Assembly: GCA_030038095.1 (NCBI GenBank)
Contig: JASHPK010000022.1
Coordinates: 1 to 34,262, forward strand
Origin: Thermoplasmata archaeon
Lineage (GTDB): Archaea; Thermoplasmatota; Thermoplasmata; Lutacidiplasmatales; UBA184
Direction of reading: 5' to 3'
DNA length: 34,262 bases
Shown one piece after another: positions 5,310 through 25,802 of the stretch; the first letter of the stretch is position 1, and each line of letters opens with the position of its first letter. Both the position numbers and the translations under genes were made by a program. The notes below the pieces were generated by a model. It was not told the origin of the DNA. It saw only the letters and a program-made list of their open reading frames with translations, and made no database searches.

Positions 5310-5391
5310 GGGACCTCGCGGCTCCCAACCTGCCCCGGCGCCGCGACGACGGCGCCGGTCGGGTCTAAGCCACGGAGGGCCGGGCGACCAA

Positions 5392-5463
5392 GCCGCCAGA
5401 GAGGATCGAACTCCCGACCTGCTGATTACAACTCAGCCGCTCTCCCGACTGAGCTATGGCGGC
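5392..5463 (-). tRNA. tRNA-Thr (anticodon UGU)
   Basis: Read on the minus strand, the 72 nt fold as a complete cloverleaf: acceptor GCCGCCA pairs with TGGCGGC, D-stem GCTC/GAGC, anticodon stem GCTGA/TCAGC around loop GTTGTAA (anticodon TGT), and T-stem GGGAG/CTCTC (one G-T pair) with loop TTCGATC. No CCA is encoded (the next bases read TTGG), as is usual in archaea. No intron is present. A CTTACG box about 31 bp upstream is the likely promoter. Confidence 0.93.
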
Positions 5464-25687: not shown

Positions 25688-25802
25688 GCGGGGATGGCCC
25701 AGCCCGGTAAGGCGCAGGATTGCTAATCCTGTGGTGATTTCACCTCGGGGGTTCAAAGGGGCCCGGGACGCGACCCGGGCCCGGGAAGTCCCCCTCCCCG
25801 CG
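25688..25802 (+). tRNA. tRNA-Ser (anticodon GCU) with probable intron in the T-loop
   Basis: The gene spans 115 nt including the discriminator. Acceptor GCGGGGA (25688-25694) pairs with TCCCCGC (25795-25801) and the discriminator is G73, as in archaeal tRNA-Ser. The D-arm is GCC/GGC, anticodon stem CAGGA/TCCTG with loop TTGCTAA (anticodon GCT), and a long variable arm (GGTGA/TCACC) follows, as in class II tRNAs. The T-stem GGGGG (25747-25751) pairs with CCCCC (25790-25794), but the 7-nt loop TTCAAAT is split by about 31 nt (roughly 25758-25788). The insert holds GGGCCCGGG and CCCGGGCCC around ACGCGA, a 9-bp hairpin. No CCA is encoded. The mature form would be fully normal, so this is a functional tRNA with an unusually placed intron rather than a pseudogene. 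Confidence 0.85.
25758..25788 (+). other. Predicted 31-nt tRNA intron between positions 59 and 60
   Basis: The insert interrupts the T-loop. A relaxed bulge-helix-bulge fold can be drawn: T-stem, then TTC (25752-25754) pairing with GAA (25785-25787), an A-rich bulge, and the 9-bp hairpin (25759-25767 with 25774-25782). The exact boundary is ambiguous by one base (25757-25787 also leaves a 7-nt loop). Confidence 0.7.

Follow-up and report, generated by a model that had tools for sequence, protein, structure and literature searches.

A predicted family-wide suite of T-loop introns at position 59/60 of tRNA genes in uncultured Thermoplasmata archaea

The tRNA-Ser(GCU) gene of a Thermoplasmata archaeon is interrupted in its T-loop by 31 nt, and this insert is most probably (probability about 0.95) a tRNA intron processed by an endonuclease at a bulge-helix-bulge (BHB) motif between positions 59 and 60, within a family-wide suite of introns at the same bond. 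The gene is located in a stretch of 34,262 nt (contig JASHPK010000022.1, assembly GCA_030038095.1), which is referred to here as the window. The evidence comes from the anatomy of the gene, its orthologues, the other tRNA genes of the genome, and the splicing enzymes that the genome encodes.

Structure of the tRNA-Ser(GCU) gene

The gene occupies positions 25688-25802 on the plus strand, in a 225-bp intergenic gap with a 3-hydroxyacyl-CoA dehydrogenase gene and a ChsH2-like OB-fold gene as neighbours, and apart from the T-loop insert it encodes a complete tRNA with G73. The 5' exon (positions 1-59 of the tRNA, 25688-25757) comprises the acceptor 5' strand, the D-arm, the anticodon arm with the anticodon GCT (25722-25724) in the loop TTGCTAA, the variable arm, the T-stem 5' strand, and the TTCAAA of the T-loop. 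The 31-nt insert, GGGGCCCGGGACGCGACCCGGGCCCGGGAAG, lies at 25758-25788, and the 3' exon (25789-25802), which is invariant in the orthologue alignment, supplies T60, the T-stem 3' strand, the acceptor 3' strand and the discriminator G73; the T-loop as encoded is TTCAAA, 31 nt and T. The stems are GCGGGGA/TCCCCGC in the acceptor (7 bp), GCC/GGC in the D-arm, CAGGA/TCCTG in the anticodon arm, GGTG/CACC in the variable arm and GGGGG/CCCCC in the T-arm. A sequence-only reading had described a gene with paired stems and G73 once the insert is removed, and this is what is seen; ARAGORN calls the spliced form tRNA-Ser(gct). The only other tRNA found within the window, tRNA-Thr(UGU) (5391-5463, minus strand; ARAGORN and Rfam), is ordinary, and its uninterrupted T-loop served as an internal control.

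The precursor can be folded into three helices separated by two bulges. The outer helix h is the T-stem, in which GGGGG (25747-25751) pairs with CCCCC (25790-25794). In the central helix H, the exon residues U54 U55 C56 (25752-25754) pair with GGA of the intron (25784-25786) through C-G, U.G and U-A pairs, and A57 (25755) faces G25783. The sequence-only reading had taken as the partner of TTC a GAA, which adjoins T60, whereas the GGA sits three bases upstream of T60; across the 50 orthologues aligned below only this GGR register is conserved, and the two bases before T60 vary freely. The inner helix h' is the 9-bp hairpin that the same reading had claimed, formed by GGGCCCGGG (25759-25767) and CCCGGGCCC (25774-25782). 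The predicted 5' bulge is A58 A59/G (25756-25758) and the predicted 3' bulge A G/T60 (25787-25789), with putative cuts, placed by the BHB rule, after 25757 and after 25788. The central helix of three base pairs and an A57.G opposition makes the earlier term "relaxed BHB" apt, and it departs from the strict canonical hBHBh' form with its four standard pairs. The precursor fold is more stable than 200 dinucleotide shuffles (z -3.5).

Comparison with orthologous genes

A pattern scan of GTDB genomes returned 70 contigs, nearly all labelled Thermoplasmata. Altogether, 70 distinct Ser(GCU) orthologues from related Thermoplasmata MAGs carry an insert of 30-35 nt (mode 31) at the same bond, a recurrence well beyond chance, so that the comparison with related genomes supports the T-loop intron proposed for a Thermoplasmata tRNA-Ser(GCU). 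The carriers include UBA184 and Ca. Lutacidiplasma silvani AcS3-62, the type genome of Lutacidiplasmatales (PMC9287336), and within the genus nearly all sampled genomes that yield a Ser(GCU) gene have the insert-bearing form. A second, intact tRNA-Ser(GCU) was sought and was found neither in the own genome nor in the congeners yielding the gene, and the check for insert-free sequence returned the insert in many independently assembled MAGs. The uninterrupted loop is found in more distant relatives: an intronless orthologue from a related family (L038) reads TTCAAAT at the corresponding site, and in relatives outside the order the T-loop of this tRNA is continuous, reading TTCAAAT or TTCGAAT in several related families.

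Exons and introns evolve very differently in the 50 gap-free copies, with a mean identity of 0.972 for exons and 0.607 for introns, and with 77 of 84 exon columns invariant versus 5 of 31 in the intron. In the nine-pair hairpin, 59 cells show two-sided changes, compared with 19.5 +/- 3.2 in shuffles (0/500), and seven of the nine pairs are affected. The intron helices are paired in 91% of cells, a value that drops to 63% or 55% when the structure is slid by one column, and U54-C56 pair with intron alignment columns 97-99 in all 50 copies (100% of cells). The junctions were placed at 59/60 because A59 and U60 are fixed in the 50 orthologues while intron base 1 and the last two intron bases vary. 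Judged by this comparison across orthologues, the insert is an intron, and the bases conserved within it are those that its processing would need.

One carrier of the archaeal intron-bearing tRNA-Ser(GCU) is titled "bacterium" (L129, DAIDCO010000057.1, isolate clean3188), and this MAG is probably mislabelled. Elsewhere Ser(GCU) is interrupted at other sites, namely in the 5' strand of the anticodon stem (L150 and L152, in G037 and G039) and in the D-loop (L156, in G040).

Introns in the other tRNA genes of the genome

The tRNA genes of the genome (G000), a fragmented MAG with 92% completeness, were tallied from tRNA matches across the whole genome, sub-threshold ones as well as strong ones, which gave 44 genes as a minimum. 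A simple T-arm pattern search yields many chance matches in this GC-rich genome, and candidates were therefore kept only with a fully paired 7-bp acceptor stem and 5-bp T-stem. At least 14 of the 44 genes contain an insert of 27-35 nt at 59/60: Ser GCU, GGA and CGA, two Glu CUC, Asp, Asn, Gln CUG, Gly UCC, Ala GGC, Arg UCU, Arg UCG, His and Leu UAG. Acceptor and T-stems are fully paired in all 13 besides Ser(GCU). The Leu UAG gene combines its T-loop intron with a D-arm intron (L206); D-arm introns occur in three more genes (Met, Arg GCG and Pro UGG; L203, L209/L299 and L301), canonical 37/38 introns occur in three (Met, Tyr and Leu UAA), and 24 of the 44 genes have no intron. Genes for tRNA-Trp, Pro(GGG) and Lys(UUU) were not found in this 92%-complete MAG, and they may belong to the part that is absent from the MAG, or further unusual introns may conceal them. 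The two Glu(CUC) genes (L178 on C58 and L180 on C20) have the same exons and resemble each other in their downstream flanks, but their T-loop introns differ; the pair may be a duplication, or one contig may come from a second strain.

The pairing of the central helix is shared by the T-loop introns of the family. The U54-C56 triple is paired in 128 of 135 T-loop-intron tRNAs, and the base facing R57 follows R57, A57 facing G in 108 of 116 cases and G57 facing C in 14 of 19; the sequences share ancestry, and the Fisher p value of this association is therefore uncalibrated. Most tRNAs with G57 thus have a central helix of four standard pairs, and most with A57 one of three pairs and an A.G opposition.

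Detection by tRNA search programs

As had been foreseen, the Ser(GCU) gene is missed by standard searches: neither ARAGORN nor Rfam at its gathering score calls it, and the sole Rfam match is sub-threshold (25.1 bits) with a wrong 3' end. Most T-loop-intron genes are missed or mis-bounded by the Rfam tRNA model and ARAGORN. Unspliced, 10 of the 14 suite genes are invisible to ARAGORN, and after deletion of the insert 13 of the 14 are recognised with the isotype expected of them. The two programs lose or mis-bound about a third of the MAG's tRNAs, a shortfall that would skew completeness checks as well as codon-tRNA analyses.

Distribution across the class and phylum

Since MAFFT placed the variable loops wrongly when nine isotypes were aligned, a covariance model (R1) was built from six well-aligned suite genes and run over 400 genomes of the class. 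The best E-values were about 1e-18 or lower in all genomes of the genus sampled and 3e-16 or lower in the other genera of the family, and no genome outside the family among the 400 fell below 4.8e-17, a level that ordinary tRNAs reach. The insert itself was confirmed by match lengths near 104 nt and by sequences from the own genome, G018 and G029. The suite is family-wide and, among the 400 class genomes sampled, confined to one family.

Sparse 59/60 introns were detected outside the family, in Arg genes of other families of the class (G037, G050 and G060) and in a Gln gene of G424, which belongs to another class of the phylum. These isolated introns (L246, L253, L258, L285 and L308) indicate that the site is thinly used across the phylum. 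A different arrangement is present in G038, an AT-rich genome of the same order and another family, in which ten tRNAs carry T-loop mini-introns of 13-14 nt at 59/60, for example TTCAAA followed by AGTGAACTGAAAA and T. Four UUCA/UGAA pairs are formed in nine of these ten, and the inner hairpin is absent. The mini-intron loci are L139, L247, L254, L259 and L271-L275, and several of these tRNAs have a second intron.

Splicing enzymes

The splicing endonuclease EndA is encoded once in the genome, as a single chain of 354 aa (L159:1004-2068, minus strand), and the ligase RtcB is also encoded once; no other splicing endonuclease was found in the genome. The nearest protein in both sequence and fold is the subunit-fusion structure 5x89 of Methanopyrus kandleri (E 5e-62, TM 0.88), followed by the A. 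fulgidus enzyme. The N-terminal half has a PRGG...SER stretch in common with the ARMAN-2 beta unit, and EndA is one two-domain gene in most relatives searched. The EndA of the class looks like a natural beta-alpha fusion. The 354-aa EndA of this genome has no insert at the CSL site of the chimeric structure 3p1y or at the 4fz2 insert (taken as the ASL), and no CSL insert ahead of LSLxEA. The acquisition of a family-specific EndA loop was considered and rejected, as no family-specific insertion is present and the architecture is that of relatives without the suite.

Relaxed or non-canonical introns have been tied to EndAs with a CSL or ASL, and homodimeric EndAs have been described as narrow (PMC6379350, PMC12397907, PMC4033280), although homodimeric EndAs have also been credited with cutting BHL-like motifs (PMC8707768). 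From the leading account of tRNA splicing one would not expect a T-loop suite in these archaea, and an EndA that lacks both CSL and ASL adds to the surprise.

Proposed processing and alternative explanations

Several features expected of a BHB intron are present in the gene and genome. The exons join to a regular tRNA, the intron is precisely absent in some relatives, a helix-bulge-helix-bulge-helix with bulges AA/N and NN/T can be formed, H and h' are conserved (h' by covariation), and EndA and RtcB are encoded. In the proposed pathway the T-stem would act as the outer helix and the 9-bp hairpin of the intron as the inner helix, with U54-U55-C56 held by the conserved G-R-R near the intron 3' end. 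EndA would cut after A59 and before U60, and RtcB would then seal A59 to U60, giving the standard T-loop UUCAAAU, which would be free to fold onto the D-loop, and discarding the 31-nt hairpin. The cleavage, the exact bonds cut and the ligation by RtcB are what we infer from these features. If U54-C56 are held by the intron until splicing, the T-loop should be modified, and the elbow formed, only afterwards.

Retention of the insert, to give a mature tRNA with an enlarged T-loop bearing an extra hairpin, would agree with the stability of the hairpin and the conservation of its shape. However, the elbow residues U54 U55 C56 would then be tied up with the insert, the same unusual loop would have to be accommodated in 14 genes, beside 24 sister tRNAs with normal loops, and the relatives show exactly the uninterrupted loop. 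The base facing R57 also changes with R57, which is what a helix that serves processing would show, and retention is accordingly highly unlikely.

A mobile repeat or self-splicing intron inserted in the T-loop has a very slight chance of being the right explanation. One insertion site common to many tRNAs suggests that introns spread at some time, but a length of 27-35 nt falls well below that of any ribozyme or element, and Rfam detected no further RNA family in the window. When introns from different tRNA genes of the genome were compared, their similarity was 0.65, hardly above the 0.60 of shuffled sequences, so that recent copying finds no support. Recent transposition of introns within the genome, tested in this way, is not supported, and any spread should be old. 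The catalytic core of group I introns takes roughly 100 nt or more; a group I intron was rejected because 31 nt is too short, and no Rfam intron match was obtained. An assembly artefact or a decaying pseudogene, conceivable in a fragmented MAG, is negligible, given an insert that recurs in tens of MAGs assembled independently in different studies, near-invariant exons around a covarying intron, and a gene that is the sole tRNA-Ser(GCU) found.

With the endonuclease-processed intron as the preferred reading, the sequence of the site suggests how introns may have come to be shared by many tRNAs. The T-loop sequence TTCRAA/T is near-universal in tRNAs; a UUC-based helix would therefore suit every tRNA, and the bond would be a ready acceptor for intron spread. 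A wider proposal, which we rate at somewhat short of even odds, is a euryarchaeal single-site intron expansion, in which a fused beta-alpha EndA without CSL or ASL would routinely clear relaxed-BHB T-loop introns from about a third of the tRNAs, the introns having spread through TTCRAA/T docking (UUC with the intron GRR).

Relation to known intron systems

BHB introns, the 59/60 position and intron-rich genomes are already known from Thermoproteales, and intron richness also from Asgard archaea (PMC4090602, PMC11291895). Non-canonical tRNA introns have been reported in Crenarchaeota, Thaumarchaeota, Nanoarchaeota, Korarchaeota and three thermophilic methanogens (PMC3218864), and 59/60 is among the non-canonical positions listed for Crenarchaeota, especially Thermoproteales (PMC4090602). 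The introns described here resemble these in their 59/60 position, small hairpin, BHB-type junction and presence in many tRNAs per genome. They differ in belonging to another phylum and in that the T-loop introns are all at one bond, whereas the crenarchaeal introns are scattered over the tRNA; the crenarchaeal and Thermoproteales-type EndA is (alpha-beta)2 with a CSL, unlike the single chain without CSL encoded here. In the Asgard Atabeyarchaeia and Freyarchaeia, introns occur in 92-95% of tRNA genes (PMC11291895), so that there, too, uncultured soil archaea have non-canonical introns in very large numbers, but in a different phylum, whereas here the introns are T-loop-specific and in only about a third of the genes.

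Korarchaeum cryptofilum was described in 2014 as the sole archaeon to combine non-canonical introns with a homodimeric EndA (PMC4033280); it shares the combination of a single-chain EndA with such introns, but its EndA has a specific loop that is lacking here. The M. kandleri EndA has been reported without a defined CSL (PMC12397907), and its structure 5x89 is described as a subunit fusion, while the fusion seen here looks natural and is class-wide. The circularly permuted tRNAs of Thermofilum pendens and Cyanidioschyzon merolae are joined at 59/60 (PMC3218864, PMC3978253), so that the same T-loop bond is a processed junction there, although in the present genes the exon order is normal. When the order Lutacidiplasmatales was described in 2022, tRNAs were searched with tRNAscan-SE 2.0, and that paper makes no mention of introns. 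In the literature searched, with subscription literature mostly outside it, no report of non-canonical tRNA introns in Thermoplasmatota was found, nor of a family-wide one-bond T-loop suite, 13-14 nt T-loop mini-introns, or a T-loop suite beside an EndA without CSL or ASL.

Implications

The suite belongs to a family of uncultured acid-soil archaea, and as a T-loop suite in Thermoplasmatota it offers an independent test of the co-evolution of EndA loops and intron diversity. The sister family, with its mini-introns of 13-14 nt, raises the question of how little structure is enough for EndA. If the euryarchaeal expansion is true, the rule that relaxed-BHB introns require a broad-specificity loop would fail.
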